Assembly (NCBI GenBank): GCA_028819845.1
Contig: JAPPKS010000012.1
Location: forward strand, 124,001-188,000
Length of the DNA: 64,000 bases
Direction of reading: 5' to 3'
Origin: Candidatus Poribacteria bacterium
GTDB lineage: Bacteria > Poribacteria > WGA-4E > PCPOR2b
Part shown: piece by piece, positions 42,204-52,953 of the stretch
Layout: each line of letters opens with the position of its first letter
Position numbering within the stretch: position 1 is the stretch's first letter
Program-made: the position numbers and the translations under genes
Notes under the pieces: generated by a model
The model's input: only the letters and a program-made list of their open reading frames with translations
Databases searched by the model: none
Told to the model about the DNA's origin: nothing

Positions 42204-42414
42204 GATTTTGTGTGGAGATTTATTTTTGCTGCGTATTACGGAAACACATAACGGCGCTGCCTTAAGATTTTTATCACGGCATGGACCATTCTTCAATTTC
42301 AGGCAGCGCAAAGGTTGGAATCCGTTGCTTCCAATTCTTCTCACAGTTCAACTGATCGGTCTGATGGATATGCTTTTCGCGGTGGAGGGAAACGGTAAGC
42401 GTAAGGAGGAATCA

Positions 42415-44058
42415 ATGATGCAAAGTGAACAACAAATGGAAACACCCAACACACTCGATTTGGTAGATCGGGCGCGGTTTGCCATCAACGCGATGACACG
42501 AAGTACCAATCCGGAAGCGGAGCACGCGGTCTACTTCACCGGGGTGCTCCACCGCAATCCGCCGACGCTACTGAGGGAGATCCCGCTGTACGGAAAATTC
42601 ATGGAAGGGATGGCGTTAATGCGTATCATGACGAGCGGCGAATTCGACACGCGCCCACCTACGCAACCCGTGGATTTTAACCGGCACGTGGACCGTGTCT
42701 GGCGGGAAGCCTTTCTGCGCAAGCTAGAGAATCAGGAACTTTCATTAGTCGGCGCCGAAGGCGGACGGCAGCTCGCATGGTTGGCGATTCAATATAAGCA
42801 GACCCAAGACTCAATGTGGAAAGAACTCGGCGAAACGGTGATTCAGCGGGCGCTAAAAACGACGGTCCATCAAAACGGCTACTGCTATTTCCCGACTGAC
42901 GCGGAAGGCACAATGCCGACGGCATGGGGGGCTACCTACCAAGGGTGGACGCTCCAGGGCGTGACCCAGTTTTATATGGCGACCGGCTCTGAAGCGGCAC
43001 TGGAACTGGCGGGTAAACTCGCCCGCTACTTGAAAGATCACTCCGGCATGTTTGATGCCGACGGGCGTTTTCTCGCACGCCACGACGTTGATGTTCCGCT
43101 CAACCCGCCGGCAACACGTGGACCTGCGCTGCATTTCCATCACAACGGCAACACGATGGAAGCGCTCTCGGAGTATGCGTGGGCGAGCGGCGAATCGGAA
43201 TTTGGCGAATTCGCCAAGAGATGCTATGAATACGCCCGTTCACGCCCCGACTCATCTCCGCTCATCGGCTTTTTTCAAGAGTACATTGACGATTGGCCCG
43301 ATAACCGCGGCGTCATAGACTGCGAAACCTGTTGCGTCGTTGACATGCTGCTGACGGCGCTCTGGATGACGAAGGCGGGCGTAGGGGATTATTGGGACGA
43401 TATCGACCGATATTTGCGAAACCAGTTCGCCGAGATGCAGATGACCTCCGGCGATTGGTTAACCCGGATGACAGAAGAGCTGCCGTATCGGCCGCCGGGC
43501 GAGGGCGAGATTGCCATGGGTTCGCCTCAGCGCTGGGTCGGCACATTCGCCGGTTGGGCGACTGCCAACGACTTCTTCGCCATCGGCGCGGGTCCCGGCA
43601 TAATGCACTGCTGCACCGGCAACGGGTCACGGGCACTTTACTACCTATGGGAAAATATGCTGGAGTTCAGCGGCGGGGAGTTACAGCTCCATCTACTGCT
43701 CAACCGAAAATCTCCGTGGGTCGAGGTCAGCAGCCGCATCCCGTATGAAGGCAAAGTCGAATTGAAGGTAAAGGAGGCTTGTGACAATATTTCGGTTCGG
43801 GCACCCGAATGGGTCGGAAGTTCAAACGGCGCACTGTCGTGCCGCGTTAACGGCACCCCTCGCAAACTCCGTTGGAAGGGCCGCTATGTTCACATCGGCA
43901 AAGCCGCGCCCGGTGATAAAGTTGAAATTGCATTTCCGATATCGGAACGAACGGTTAAAGAAACAGTGGGCGGTGTGCCGTACACGCTTGTAATCAGGGG
44001 CAATAACGTAATTTCCATCTCACCGCCGGGGAAGAATTATCCTTTTTATAACCGATAA
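42415..44058 (+). CDS. GH127 (DUF1680)-like glycoside hydrolase, copy 1
   Basis: About 547 residues with the (alpha/alpha)6 barrel features of beta-L-arabinofuranosidase relatives. The zinc/nucleophile pieces of GH127 are visible as CETCCVVDM (residues about 372-380 of the long frame) and HCCTGNGSRALYYLWE (about 470-485), which correspond to the Glu-x-Cys and Cys-Cys sites in known enzymes. AAGGAGGA ends four bases before ATG 42415 and seven before ATG 42418, which fixes this start. The frame stays open to 42208 and encodes a signal-like helix similar to that of copy 2. Its expected ATG at 42281 is out of frame by one base, so export may be lost. The next gene is a close paralogue. Confidence 0.8.
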   Translation: MMQSEQQMETPNTLDLVDRARFAINAMTRSTNPEAEHAVYFTGVLHRNPPTLLREIPLYGKFMEGMALMRIMTSGEFDTRPPTQPVDFNRHVDRVWREAFLRKLENQELSLVGAEGGRQLAWLAIQYKQTQDSMWKELGETVIQRALKTTVHQNGYCYFPTDAEGTMPTAWGATYQGWTLQGVTQFYMATGSEAALELAGKLARYLKDHSGMFDADGRFLARHDVDVPLNPPATRGPALHFHHNGNTMEALSEYAWASGESEFGEFAKRCYEYARSRPDSSPLIGFFQEYIDDWPDNRGVIDCETCCVVDMLLTALWMTKAGVGDYWDDIDRYLRNQFAEMQMTSGDWLTRMTEELPYRPPGEGEIAMGSPQRWVGTFAGWATANDFFAIGAGPGIMHCCTGNGSRALYYLWENMLEFSGGELQLHLLLNRKSPWVEVSSRIPYEGKVELKVKEACDNISVRAPEWVGSSNGALSCRVNGTPRKLRWKGRYVHIGKAAPGDKVEIAFPISERTVKETVGGVPYTLVIRGNNVISISPPGKNYPFYNR

Positions 44059-44229
44059 TGGATTTGCGCCTGTCTTAAGCTAACTAATCTGAACAAACGC
44101 GACCTCAATTTGATTCATGGTAGTTTATTATGCGCCGCACAATTCAACCTGCCTACTGAAGTCAATGACGATGATATGACATATTCCAACGATTCACTAA
44201 TCAGTCTTATAGAAAAAGACCCATCAACA

Positions 44230-46011
44230 ATGAGACGGTTATTCAATTTCAATCCCTCGAAATGTTGGAAACTGAGACTCCCATTTATCCGCGCGATTCT
44301 GCCGCTCGGGTTGATTGCCGCCGTTTTCGTTTCGGGGGGCTACGGAAAGCTCAAGGAGGAACCAACGATGCAAAATGAACAATTAGCAGAGGCGCCCAAC
44401 ACGCTAGATTTGGTAGAGCGGGCTGGGTATGCGATTAACGCGATGACGCGAAGTACAAATCCGGAAGCGGAATACGCGGTCTACTTCACCGGCGTGCTCC
44501 ACCGCAACCCGCCGACCCTGTCAGGGCAAATTCCGCTTTACGGAAAATTCATGGAAGGGACAGCGTTGATGCGCATCATGACGAGCGGCGAATTCAACAT
44601 GCGCCCAGCTACCCAACCCAAGGATTTCAATCGACACGTGGACCGCGTCTGGCATGATGCCTTTCTGCGGTTACTTACCGAACATAAGCCGGTGCTTACG
44701 GGACCCGAAGGCGGACGGCAACTCGCATGGTTAGCCATTCAGTATCGCCAGACGAATGACGCAATGTGGAAAGAACTCGGTGAATCGGCGATTCAGCGCG
44801 CGCTTGATGCGGCAGTCCATCAAGATGGCTTCTGTTATTTCCCGCACGGGGCAGAAGTGACGATGCCGACGGGTTGGGGGGCGACCTATCAAGGGTGGAC
44901 GCTTCAAGGGTTGAGCCAGTTTTATATTGCGACCGGTTCGGACGTTGCACTGGAACTGGCGGGCAAACTTGCCCGCTATTTGAAGGATCACGCCGGTGTT
45001 TTTGATGCAGACGGACGGTTTCTATCGCGCCACGGCGATTCCATTCCGCACAGCCCGCCAGCCACACGTGGACCTGCACTGCATTTCCACCACAACGGCA
45101 ATGCGATGGAAGGGCTGATGGAGTACGCGTTGGCGAGCGGCGATGCGGAATATGCTGAATTCGCGAAAAAATGCTATGAATACGCCCGTTCGCTCCCCGA
45201 CTCATCGCCGCTTATCGGCTTTTTTCAGGAGTACATTGACGATTGGCCCGATAACCGCGGCGTCATTGACTGCGAAACCTGCTGTGTTGTTGACATGATG
45301 CTGACGGCGCTCTGGATGACGAAGGCGGGTGTTGGCGATTATTGGGACGACATTGACCGGTACATGCGGAACCAGTTCGCCGAGATGCAGATGACCACCG
45401 GAGATTGGCTGGAAAAAATGAATGAAGGGCTATCATATCAACCGCCGGGCGATGATGAGATTGCGATGGGTTCACCTCAGCGTTGGATCGGCACCTTCGC
45501 CGGTTGGGCGACTGCCAATGACTTCTTCGCCATCGGTGCAGGTCCAGGTATTATGCACTGCTGCACCGGCAACGGGTCACGGGCGCTTTACTATCTCTGG
45601 GAAAATACGCTAGAATACAACGACGGAGAGTTACGGCTCAATCTGCTTCTCAACCGGCAATCTCCATGGGTGCAAGTCAGCAGCCATATCCCGTATGAAG
45701 GCAAGGTTGAGTTGAAGGTCAAGGCGGGGTGTGAAAATATTGCCGTTCGTGCGCCCGAATGGGTGGAAGGGTCAAGCGGCGTACTGTCGTGCCGCGTCAA
45801 CGGCGCCGTCCGCAAACTCAGTTGGAAGGACCGCTATGTGCACATCGGCGAAGCGGCGCCCGGAGATACGGTTGAACTCGCGTTTCCGATATCGGAACGG
45901 ACGGTCGAGGAAACAGTTGGCGGCGTACGTTACACGCTTGTAATCAGGGGCAATAACGTGGTTTCCATCTCACCAAGGGGAAAGAATTACCCGTTCTACC
46001 ACCGCAATTAA
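44230..46011 (+). CDS. GH127 (DUF1680)-like glycoside hydrolase, copy 2
   Basis: About 593 residues from ATG 44230, very similar to copy 1 along the whole catalytic region, with the same CETCCVVDM and HCCTGNGSRALYYLWE sites. The upstream ATG gives a hydrophobic N-terminal segment (LPFIRAILPLGLIAAVFV), so this copy can be exported. A strong AAGGAGGA before ATG 44368 offers an internal start without it. The two genes are a recent tandem duplication. The true glycoside is unknown; arabinofuranosides are the family precedent. Loose assignment to GH127 rests on the Cys/Glu motifs. Confidence 0.8.
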   Translation: MRRLFNFNPSKCWKLRLPFIRAILPLGLIAAVFVSGGYGKLKEEPTMQNEQLAEAPNTLDLVERAGYAINAMTRSTNPEAEYAVYFTGVLHRNPPTLSGQIPLYGKFMEGTALMRIMTSGEFNMRPATQPKDFNRHVDRVWHDAFLRLLTEHKPVLTGPEGGRQLAWLAIQYRQTNDAMWKELGESAIQRALDAAVHQDGFCYFPHGAEVTMPTGWGATYQGWTLQGLSQFYIATGSDVALELAGKLARYLKDHAGVFDADGRFLSRHGDSIPHSPPATRGPALHFHHNGNAMEGLMEYALASGDAEYAEFAKKCYEYARSLPDSSPLIGFFQEYIDDWPDNRGVIDCETCCVVDMMLTALWMTKAGVGDYWDDIDRYMRNQFAEMQMTTGDWLEKMNEGLSYQPPGDDEIAMGSPQRWIGTFAGWATANDFFAIGAGPGIMHCCTGNGSRALYYLWENTLEYNDGELRLNLLLNRQSPWVQVSSHIPYEGKVELKVKAGCENIAVRAPEWVEGSSGVLSCRVNGAVRKLSWKDRYVHIGEAAPGDTVELAFPISERTVEETVGGVRYTLVIRGNNVVSISPRGKNYPFYHRN

Positions 46012-49460: not shown

Positions 49461-49964
49461 TTACGTTACGGATTCATTGAAAATGGGATCGGTTGTTCGG
49501 AATCTGAGGTTGTCTTTTGCTTTGATATCATCGATAATGATTCTAACGTCGGATTGCGTCAAAATTCCAAATTCCCAAAGCACCCGTAAAGTCTCGGCTA
49601 AGTTGACGCAATCTATTTGGATTCTCAGACAGTGATGTTTGACTCGCCGTTCGTTGCTAACAAAGACGGCGCCTAATCGTTTGCAAATTGCCATTGTCTC
49701 GCGTTCCCCTAAACCGAGTGTCCAAGGCAGAGTTTTCATGAACTGTTGGTCTGCATCTGTCGGTTGATACGTCACGATTCGTCCTTGCGCATGCAATGCC
49801 ATGACATGTTCTACAAAATTGAATCCCTTGTCGGCACCTGTATGTAGTTCGCGCTCCACAGCGGAAGAAATGTTGAGTAAATCCGCATTGAAGACGGTAA
49901 ACAACAGGGGCAAACGTTGAACTTTAGCAAAAATCGAAAGCACGTCCGTGTCAATGAAAACCAC
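49461..49964 (-). CDS. PIN-domain protein, probable toxin of a toxin-antitoxin pair
   Basis: A 167-residue protein with an N-terminal FIDTDVLS (acidic Asp5/Asp7) and a second acidic site in LGLGERETMAIC, followed by VFVSNERRVK. PIN domains are Mg-dependent ribonucleases with three or four acidic residues. The usual Asp of the third motif appears as Asn here, so activity is uncertain. It starts two bases after the stop of the UPF0175 gene, which makes the pair a type II toxin-antitoxin-like module. Confidence 0.75.
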   Translation of the reverse strand: MVFIDTDVLSIFAKVQRLPLLFTVFNADLLNISSAVERELHTGADKGFNFVEHVMALHAQGRIVTYQPTDADQQFMKTLPWTLGLGERETMAICKRLGAVFVSNERRVKHHCLRIQIDCVNLAETLRVLWEFGILTQSDVRIIIDDIKAKDNLRFRTTDPIFNESVT

Positions 49965-49966
49965 GG

Positions 49967-50317
49967 TTAAGCCTCATCGGAATTGTCGTTTGGCTTGTGA
50001 ACTTTCTTGACGACCGAAATACCCTCTTGCAATGCGTCCACCGATTCGACTTCAATTGTCTTTGAGATGCCCTTCGTGCTCAAAGCCACGTCAAACTCAA
50101 AACGGTGGATTCCAGCCAATTCGGCACCCCTTGCAAGCGTAATTTCACCGTGTTGATATAGCAAAATGGCGGCATCAAGACGAGACTCTTTTTTCGTAGT
50201 GACTAATTTTTCAAGTGCATCGGTCATCAACGCATGCGAATCGGCATAAAGTCCCACATCAATCAGGGCGTTCACCTCTTCTTCGAGGGCAGGTGAGTGA
50301 ATTTCAATCTGGAGCAT
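49967..50317 (-). CDS. UPF0175 family antitoxin-like protein
   Basis: A 116-residue protein with the UPF0175 pattern AAILLYQHGEITLARGAELAGIHRFEF in the middle (about 48-76), a helix-turn-helix-like segment used as antitoxin DNA-binding part in such pairs. The N-terminal part (about 1-45) may be a ribbon-helix-helix. GGAAAG lies before the ATG. It is directly followed by the PIN gene and probably autoregulates the operon, as VapB-type antitoxins do. Confidence 0.75.
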   Translation of the reverse strand: MLQIEIHSPALEEEVNALIDVGLYADSHALMTDALEKLVTTKKESRLDAAILLYQHGEITLARGAELAGIHRFEFDVALSTKGISKTIEVESVDALQEGISVVKKVHKPNDNSDEA

Positions 50318-50600: not shown

Positions 50601-51554
50601 TTAATTTTGCAATTCATGCAGCAAATCTACCCAACTCAGGCGTTCTCGTGCGGGGTCTACCAGCGGTTTAAGCCGTTCGCACCACGCCTTGACAGTATTG
50701 TAAAACGCCGGGTCTGTCTCAATTCGCTCTAGGAGTTTCGCCAATGCGTACGTATCGCCTACCGGAAAGTAGCCCGGATAATCCTCGCCGAGTAGACCGA
50801 TTGATCCGGATATTTGCGACGAAATGACGGGCACCGAACAGGCGATTGCCTCGCCAACCACATTCGCGCCACCCTCCATCTGTGAAGTCAACACGAGCGC
50901 GCGGCATCGGGCTAAACGGCGAAGTGCCTTCCAGCGAGGAATTTCCCCTACCCAACGATAGCGCGGATTGGACGCTTCCTCTGCTCTTGCGGTTATTTCC
51001 ATCTCTTCGCTTAAGGCGCCGCCGATATGCACCACCTGGACTCGCGAGTGGGCGCGCAGGGAGCGGGAAGCTATCGCCGTCCGGAATGGGTCCTTCACGG
51101 GACGCAAATGTCCAATCACTCACACCTCAAAGACATCTTTTTTCGGAGAAAAGGCGCCCGGCGGTTTCTTTACGGATTGGTAAATGACGCTTGCCTTGCC
51201 TCGCAAGTGTACCGGAAGTTCATCAATTCCCATCGCTTGCAGCACGATGAACTTCGACGCTATCTCCAGCGATTCTTGAGCGGACGAATCGGTATGGATA
51301 TCGCTGTACAGATCTGTTCCGGTCAGCGCCAGGATAAGCGGTAGGTCGGCGTATTTATCCCGATAACTTTTAATGGAAACATAACTGCGGCGTGCGTGAA
51401 GCGCGACCATCAAATCGCACCGCTCGCCGCCATACGCTTGCTGAACCAGGACACGGTGACCGAGGTCGCGCAATATGCCAGCCCAGCGCAGCGCGGTTAC
51501 ACGGTTTCCTTTGCGGGAGCGCGGCGGCGCCGGGGTAATCATACAAATTTTCAT
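50601..51554 (-). CDS. senB: Selenosugar synthase SenB, reading frame split by one in-frame TGA
   Basis: A glycosyltransferase-like protein of 317 positions. The N-part (codons 1-144) has TPAPPRSRKGNRVTALRWA, LVQQAYGGERCD and ALTGTDLYSDI. The C-part has VIGHLRPVKDPFRT, SQMEGGANVVGEAI and GLLGEDYPGYFPVGDTYALA. These match the SenB family (TIGR04348), which joins selenophosphate to a UDP-sugar in selenoneine synthesis. Codon 145, at 51120-51122, is TGA in the same frame on both sides. I recall Cys before VIGHLRPVKDP in close relatives, so selenocysteine is possible. A 4 bp hairpin with a CG-starting loop follows (51090-51103). Otherwise the gene is disrupted by a point change. It lies 85 bp after senA. 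Confidence 0.78.
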
Positions 51555-51639: not shown

Positions 51640-52953
51640 TCAGTCGCGCGCACAGGTGCGAAAGCCAGCCAGCACATCCCGCCGATCCGGCGTGTAGAAA
51701 TTGCGCCAGGTGTTGCGCAGCATCCGGGAACGCGTTGTCCAGCACCCGCCGCGCAACACTTTTCGAGATGCGAACCAGGGGGCGGAATAATCCTTGTACA
51801 GGTCAACCTCAAAACCTGGATAAGGGTGAAAACTGCTGCTCGTCCATTCCCATACGTTACCAATCATCTGCCGGCAGCCAAAGGCGCTGTCGCCCTCCGG
51901 TAATGCGTTAACATTGACACAACCCATCTGATTCCAATCCAAGTTAGCCCGCTCAGGCGTATGCGGTTCGCCGCCCCAAGGGAAGCGCCGCTTCGTCGAC
52001 GAAAGCCCCTCACCGCCAAGGCGCGGTTCTGCGGCGGCGGCAACCTCCCACTCAACCTCTGTTGGGAGCCGGCGCTTCGCCCAACGGCAGTACGCTTCAA
52101 CCTCATACCAGTTGACATGGATTACGGGAAGGCGGGGTTCGAGCGGCACCCATTCGCCAAAATGCCGCCGCAACCATTCGCCATCCGTGTCGCAACGCCA
52201 GTAGACGGGATGTTGCGCCGCCTCCGAGTTACGCCAATCCCATCCGTCCGAACTCCAGAGGTCTCTTCGGCGGTAACCATCATTGTCCACAAATGCAGCG
52301 AATTCGGATTGGGTGACGGCGGTAGGCGCAATCGCAAATGGTTTGACCTCGACAGGATGCGCCCATTTTTCGTTGTCAAACACGAATTCTTCATCTTGCT
52401 CGGCGCCCAACAGGAAGGTCCCGCCGGGAATTTCAACATCGCCGGGAAGCGTGTTGTCCATCCAATCTTCATTGAAAGGGTTCACACTTTCAGAGAATTG
52501 CGGCGGACGATATCCCAACGTCTGCCGTGTATAGGTGAACGCCTCGGTGTGCATGTCTTCGTGAAAAACGGTGTAGCGGACGAGATAGATTTGATCATGA
52601 TTCAATTCGCCGCTTTCAATAGTTTCGATAACCGCATCCCGCACGTTGCGCATGTACGCCAGCGTCTCTTCCCGAGATGGAATCGACAGCGCCCAGCGAG
52701 TATCATGTTCAATCGCGATCGAATCCCAGAGTGTATCAGCGTCGTCCCGAATCGGCTTCTGTTTGAAAGCGTGCCGCAGCACCCATTTTTCTTGAAACCA
52801 CGCCACATGCCCGATTTCCCACAACGGCGGATTGACGATTGGCAAGTACGGACCTATTAGCTGCTCGTCATCCAGATCGGCCGCCAAATCGAAGGTTCGC
52901 TGGCGTGCATCGTAAACCCACTCAACGAGCTGTGCCGTTATATCGCATTTCAT
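51640..52953 (-). CDS. senA: Selenoneine synthase SenA (EgtB-like, DinB/FGE fold)
   Basis: A 437-residue non-heme iron enzyme that couples hercynine (trimethylhistidine) with a selenosugar. The N-terminal DinB-like domain has the iron ligands His49 (WEIGHVAWFQEKW) and His132/His136 in FHEDMHTEAF. The C-terminal FGE-sulfatase-like domain has IPGGTFLLG, LPTEVEWEVA, GNVWEWTSSSF and VLRGGCW. The LPIVNPPLWEIGHVAWF block resembles SenA more than EgtB. senB follows on the same strand. No SenC/SelD-like selenophosphate synthase gene and no hercynine methyltransferase gene (EgtD type) is in the window, so both must come from elsewhere. The SenA rather than EgtB call rests on motif memory and the senB neighbour. 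Confidence 0.85.
   Translation of the reverse strand: MKCDITAQLVEWVYDARQRTFDLAADLDDEQLIGPYLPIVNPPLWEIGHVAWFQEKWVLRHAFKQKPIRDDADTLWDSIAIEHDTRWALSIPSREETLAYMRNVRDAVIETIESGELNHDQIYLVRYTVFHEDMHTEAFTYTRQTLGYRPPQFSESVNPFNEDWMDNTLPGDVEIPGGTFLLGAEQDEEFVFDNEKWAHPVEVKPFAIAPTAVTQSEFAAFVDNDGYRRRDLWSSDGWDWRNSEAAQHPVYWRCDTDGEWLRRHFGEWVPLEPRLPVIHVNWYEVEAYCRWAKRRLPTEVEWEVAAAAEPRLGGEGLSSTKRRFPWGGEPHTPERANLDWNQMGCVNVNALPEGDSAFGCRQMIGNVWEWTSSSFHPYPGFEVDLYKDYSAPWFASRKVLRGGCWTTRSRMLRNTWRNFYTPDRRDVLAGFRTCARD

Follow-up and report, generated by a model that had tools for sequence, protein, structure and literature searches.

We identified a single in-frame UGA at codon 145 of senB, the gene for selenosugar synthase, in a Candidatus Poribacteria draft genome, and this codon is very probably decoded as selenocysteine (Sec). 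The possibility had been raised in an earlier note on this DNA, and the reading is supported by conservation of the UGA in related genomes, exchange of cysteine and Sec at the same alignment column, the presence of the Sec machinery, conservation at the codon level of a downstream hairpin, and purifying selection. SenB belongs to a known enzyme family, which is here newly predicted to include a selenoprotein.

An in-frame UGA in a selenosugar synthase gene

The gene lies within the window, the whole 64,000-nucleotide stretch of DNA that was analyzed, which is part of a 4.6-Mb draft genome. The TGA at codon 145 is the sole defect of the senB frame, and the earlier description of a single frame with one TGA and no indel is confirmed on the minus strand, where no frameshift was found (Table 1). 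When translated through the TGA, the product matches the NCBIfam model TIGR04348 over residues 3–313 with 397.3 bits (cut-off 300 bits). Its AlphaFold2 model has a mean pLDDT of 94.2, and the closest structure in the PDB is the SenB of Variovorax paradoxus (8jjn, TM 0.92), a GT-B fold. Residues K154, E227 and E235 correspond to the published catalytic K158 and donor-binding E231 and E239, and they are present in the window SenB as well as in all nine other TGA-bearing SenBs that we found. All three are encoded 3' of codon 145, so termination there would leave no working enzyme. Residue 145 itself precedes the catalytic lysine by nine residues; it lies near the domain boundary, on the strand that opens the C-terminal domain. 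By family match, fold, catalytic and donor-binding residues, and the neighboring senA, the window gene is a SenB, with the synthesis of selenosugar from selenophosphate and a UDP-sugar as its predicted function. Every genome checked, including that of the window, has one SenB copy.

Table 1. Features of the senB locus, with coordinates in the window
Feature	Coordinates	Strand	Remarks
senA, selenoneine synthase	51640..52953	-	NF041186, 512.7 bits; directly upstream of senB
senB, selenosugar synthase	50601..51554	-	317 codons plus stop, single in-frame TGA
TGA codon 145, predicted Sec codon of senB	51120..51122	-	TGA in the same column in five genomes
Apical hairpin GUCC-CGUGAA-GGAC, predicted SECIS	51090..51103	-	Loop starts 20 nt after the UGA

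Comparisons among the genes that share this TGA gave pN/pS values of 0.12–0.32 after the codon and 0.10–0.32 before it; most gene pairs are close to saturated at synonymous sites. As judged from these ratios, purifying selection is equally strong on either side of the TGA, in keeping with the conserved sequence previously noticed on both sides. A decayed gene would not be expected to give such values past the TGA, which disfavors the reading of senB as a pseudogene.

Codon 145 among SenB homologs

In an alignment of 84 distinct SenBs, the residue at codon 145 is cysteine in 66, alanine in 8, and valine, serine, threonine or glycine in 5, and the codon is TGA in the remaining 5. Glycine occurs once in this column and tryptophan never. 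The earlier note had stated that close relatives carry cysteine at this position, and the alignment bears this out. Examination of the same position in related genomes, which the note had proposed, revealed the TGA in four other genomes of the Poribacteria group in addition to that of the window. These genomes were assembled separately, and an error confined to one assembly does not account for the TGA. The five genomes are all related and belong to two families and four genera of one order. The comparison set includes two genomes of the same family as the window genome, G003 and G002 (loci L066 and L070). Relatives from the same class have alanine at the site (L150 and L151), and the V. paradoxus SenB, which has been assayed and is active, has valine. 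When mapped on the tree, the distribution of TGA at codon 145 cannot be explained by fewer than three changes, and there is mild rejection of a topology that unites the TGA genes in one clade (p-AU 0.026). This pattern would fit either an early gain followed by replacement with cysteine or alanine, or several gains.

Selenocysteine machinery

All four genes whose presence the earlier note had suggested checking (selA, selB, selC and selD) were found in the window genome. The genes for SelA (594 bits), SelB (374 bits) and tRNA-Sec (77.5 bits, anticodon TCA) are clustered on contig C21, and selD is represented by one strong match (377 bits) on another contig (genome G000, contig C10, locus L047). 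SelB and tRNA-Sec are also present in all five genomes with TGA at codon 145. The selD gene of the window genome contains an in-frame TGA of its own, within VKCAGUASKL, which we take to be the place where SelD usually has Sec or Cys. Both enzymes acting around selenophosphate therefore look dependent on Sec. Across draft genomes with senB, tRNA-Sec was found in 43 of 50, a high overlap between selenoneine genes and the use of Sec.

A candidate SECIS hairpin

A hairpin with the sequence GUCC-CGUGAA-GGAC, which the earlier note had pointed out, follows the UGA and is a predicted SECIS element. Bacterial SECIS elements have been modeled with a stem of 4–16 bp, a loop of 3–9 nt with a G at one of its first two positions, a spacing of 16–37 nt, and a minimum free energy of -7.5 kcal/mol or lower (PMC13188914). 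The senB hairpin falls within this geometry, with a 4 bp stem, a 6 nt loop that begins with CG, and a spacing of 20 nt. However, the geometry alone is common by chance, and hairpins that are as good occur at 15–30% of the codon positions of these genes. The energy of the hairpin is -2.2 to -3.5 kcal/mol, with folding z-scores of about 0 relative to shuffled sequences. A longer stretch past the TGA reaches -8 to -11 kcal/mol, mostly via other folds, and for most of the five genes with TGA at codon 145 the minimum-energy fold is a different one from the hairpin. An Rfam scan of the senB locus returned no match.

Because folding is no better than in shuffled sequences, a SECIS argument from a single sequence would not stand alone, and we used codon conservation instead. 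The hairpin examined in this way had been named before the comparison was made. The test considered aligned four- to sixfold degenerate codons with a conserved amino acid in the five TGA genes. All five share the same codons +6 to +9 after the TGA (CGT CCC GTG AAG), although their synonymous divergence is close to saturation. Codons +6 to +8 are invariant at 3 of 3 positions, compared with 3 of 113 elsewhere (P = 8e-5), and none of the 8 cysteine-containing relatives has the same four codons. The one stem change found among the TGA genes, GGAC to GGAU, keeps the pairing as a G-U pair. By this comparative measure, the predicted SECIS is conserved at the RNA level among the genes with TGA at codon 145.

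In-frame UGA codons elsewhere in SenB

In-frame stop codons are present in 10 of the 84 SenBs, and every one is TGA, with no instance of TAA or TAG. By comparison, no in-frame stop is present among the 23,323 residues of 57 SenAs drawn from this set of loci (Fisher P = 0.006). In addition to the five at codon 145, single in-frame TGAs occur at codon 4 in L087 (Acidobacteria) and L106 (Tectomicrobia), at codon 130 in L074 (Latescibacterota), and at codon 171 in L077 (Acidobacteria) and L127 (SAR324), and these frames are otherwise intact. Cysteine is the commonest residue in the codon 4 column (26 of 84); columns 130 and 171 are not cysteine columns. Downstream of each of these TGAs there is a hairpin whose loop lies 20–22 nt away and has a G at one of its first two positions. 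However, such hairpins are common in these genes, and ranking them did not separate TGA sites from the corresponding sites of relatives that have no TGA. The genomes in question encode SelB in all five cases and tRNA-Sec in four.

In L087 there is no in-frame start codon for 32 codons past the TGA, so the TGA must be read through for the enzyme to be made. In L106 a GTG two codons past the TGA is a possible start. The two TGAs at codon 4 are probable Sec codons. Those at codons 130 and 171, which fall in non-cysteine columns, could be errors in single draft genomes, and the common single change from CGA to TGA may lie behind the codon 171 cases. None of the four positions (4, 130, 145 and 171) matches a published catalytic or substrate residue of SenB. 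A search of viral contigs found no SenB, and three proteobacterial copies are carried on plasmids.

A possible selenium gate

Based on these observations we propose that SelB and tRNA-Sec(UCA), together with the SECIS hairpin approximately 20 nt downstream, would decode UGA145 to give a full-length GT-B selenosugar synthase. SelD would provide selenophosphate, part of which would be spent by SelA on Sec-tRNA and part by SenB on the selenosugar that SenA would turn into selenoneine. Termination at UGA145 would produce a fragment that has neither the catalytic lysine nor the donor-binding glutamates, so active SenB would form only in the presence of charged Sec-tRNA. Such an arrangement would act as a gate that gives selenoproteins the first call on selenium and allows it to drain into selenoneine only when the supply is plentiful. 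The gate makes metabolic sense because SelA and SenB compete for selenophosphate and selenoproteins would receive priority.

From these comparisons we infer the presence of Sec in the protein and, much more tentatively, the gate as the reason that the Sec codon has been kept, an idea that is plausible without being probable. We hold with similar reserve that SenB might have gained a Sec codon several times (at codons 4, 130, 145 and 171) as a translational gate that is independent of position, and not for its chemistry. The presence of TGA at four different codons, the valine or alanine at site 145 in other SenBs, and the single SenB per genome are consistent with this proposal. As TGA is found at other codons and site 145 is not a known catalytic residue, the role of Sec145 may be regulatory.

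The main rival with respect to function is that Sec145 has been kept for its chemistry, where it could aid catalysis, handle selenide or selenol intermediates, or guard against oxidation. The prevalence of cysteine in column 145 is in agreement with such a role, since Sec/Cys exchange is usual for a redox or nucleophilic residue, as is the location of the site nine residues ahead of the catalytic lysine on the first strand of the C-terminal domain. However, the active V. paradoxus enzyme has valine here, other SenBs have alanine, valine, serine, threonine or glycine, residue 145 is absent from the published pocket residues, and there are further TGAs at codons 4, 130 and 171. We prefer the gate because the TGA positions vary and match no published catalytic residue, and consider the chemical role possible but somewhat doubtful; the two can coexist.

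Several other explanations address whether Sec is inserted at all. If translation stopped at UGA145 and restarted at the next GTG, senB would be a split gene encoding two separate, cooperating domains. The UGA is near the domain boundary and the next codon is GTG in four of the five TGA145 genes. However, L010 has GTA at this position and its first start codon is a TTG at codon +5, which makes a split gene unlikely; the valine after site 145 is also conserved in the cysteine-containing relatives, and the cysteine column, the hairpin conservation confined to TGA genes, and the TGAs at other codons would be left unexplained. We therefore regard a split gene as highly improbable. Still less credence can be given to the alternatives raised in the earlier note, an assembly error or a nonsense mutation, the latter implying that the gene is decaying. 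These are draft genomes and the CGA to TGA change is common (it may account for the codon 171 cases). However, the same codon is TGA in five genomes, the frame is otherwise sound, and no TAA or TAG occurs in the 84 SenBs. Equal selection upstream and downstream of the codon and the absence of any in-frame stop from the 57 SenAs of these loci make both alternatives hard to keep. Finally, reassignment of UGA to another amino acid in this organism would also place an in-frame UGA within a gene under selection. However, UGA terminates 10 of the 27 window ORFs of at least 300 codons, senA included, and a change in the genetic code is effectively ruled out by these stops. The presence of tRNA-Sec(UCA), SelA and SelB, and a column with one glycine and no tryptophan, also argue against reassignment. 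Insertion of Sec at UGA145 is the reading that we retain.

Relationship to known systems

Structures of SenB have been solved for V. paradoxus and for RsSenB (PDB 8jjn, 8jjq, 8fbx, 8k5u; PMC10891094, PMC10702425). The window SenB resembles both in its TIGR04348 match, GT-B fold, conserved lysine and two glutamates, and adjacent senA. However, the V. paradoxus protein has valine at the UGA site and is not a selenoprotein, whereas the window gene needs read-through of the UGA for completeness. Another parallel is the selenoprotein SelD, itself an enzyme of selenium metabolism with UGA/Sec at a cysteine site. The Sec residue of SelD sits in a fixed catalytic loop; in contrast, the position of the UGA in SenB varies and does not coincide with a known catalytic residue.

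Families of bacterial selenoproteins have been predicted through Sec/Cys pairing combined with bacterial SECIS elements (PMC13188914; deep-Sep, PMC12013277). SenB is like these families in having TGA at a cysteine column, the hairpin geometry and the Sec machinery, but unlike them in having the UGA at several unrelated codons. Neither SenB nor any other glycosyltransferase is named in the searched parts of PMC13188914 and PMC12013277. The open literature that we searched, which included reviews and prediction papers on bacterial selenoproteins, does not describe SenB as a selenoprotein.

If UGA145 is indeed a Sec codon, SenB, one of few known enzymes that form carbon-selenium bonds, would join the selenoproteins, and a single gene would connect the use of selenium in proteins with its use in small molecules. 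Annotation that reads UGA as a stop would split such genes, with the risk that selenoneine loci of uncultured bacteria are overlooked or wrongly interpreted. The gene also raises a testable question, whether a Sec codon can serve as a switch responding to selenium status instead of as the source of a catalytic residue. If the gate is correct, UGA/Sec would serve to regulate a biosynthetic enzyme regardless of where in the gene the codon lies.

Other genes in the window

Downstream of senB, at positions 49461-50317 on the minus strand, a gene of the UPF0175 family is followed after 2 bases by an unmatched gene of 167 aa, and this couple could be a toxin-antitoxin pair. At positions 42208-46011 on the plus strand there is a tandem couple of closely similar genes of approximately 620 aa each, an apparent duplication.
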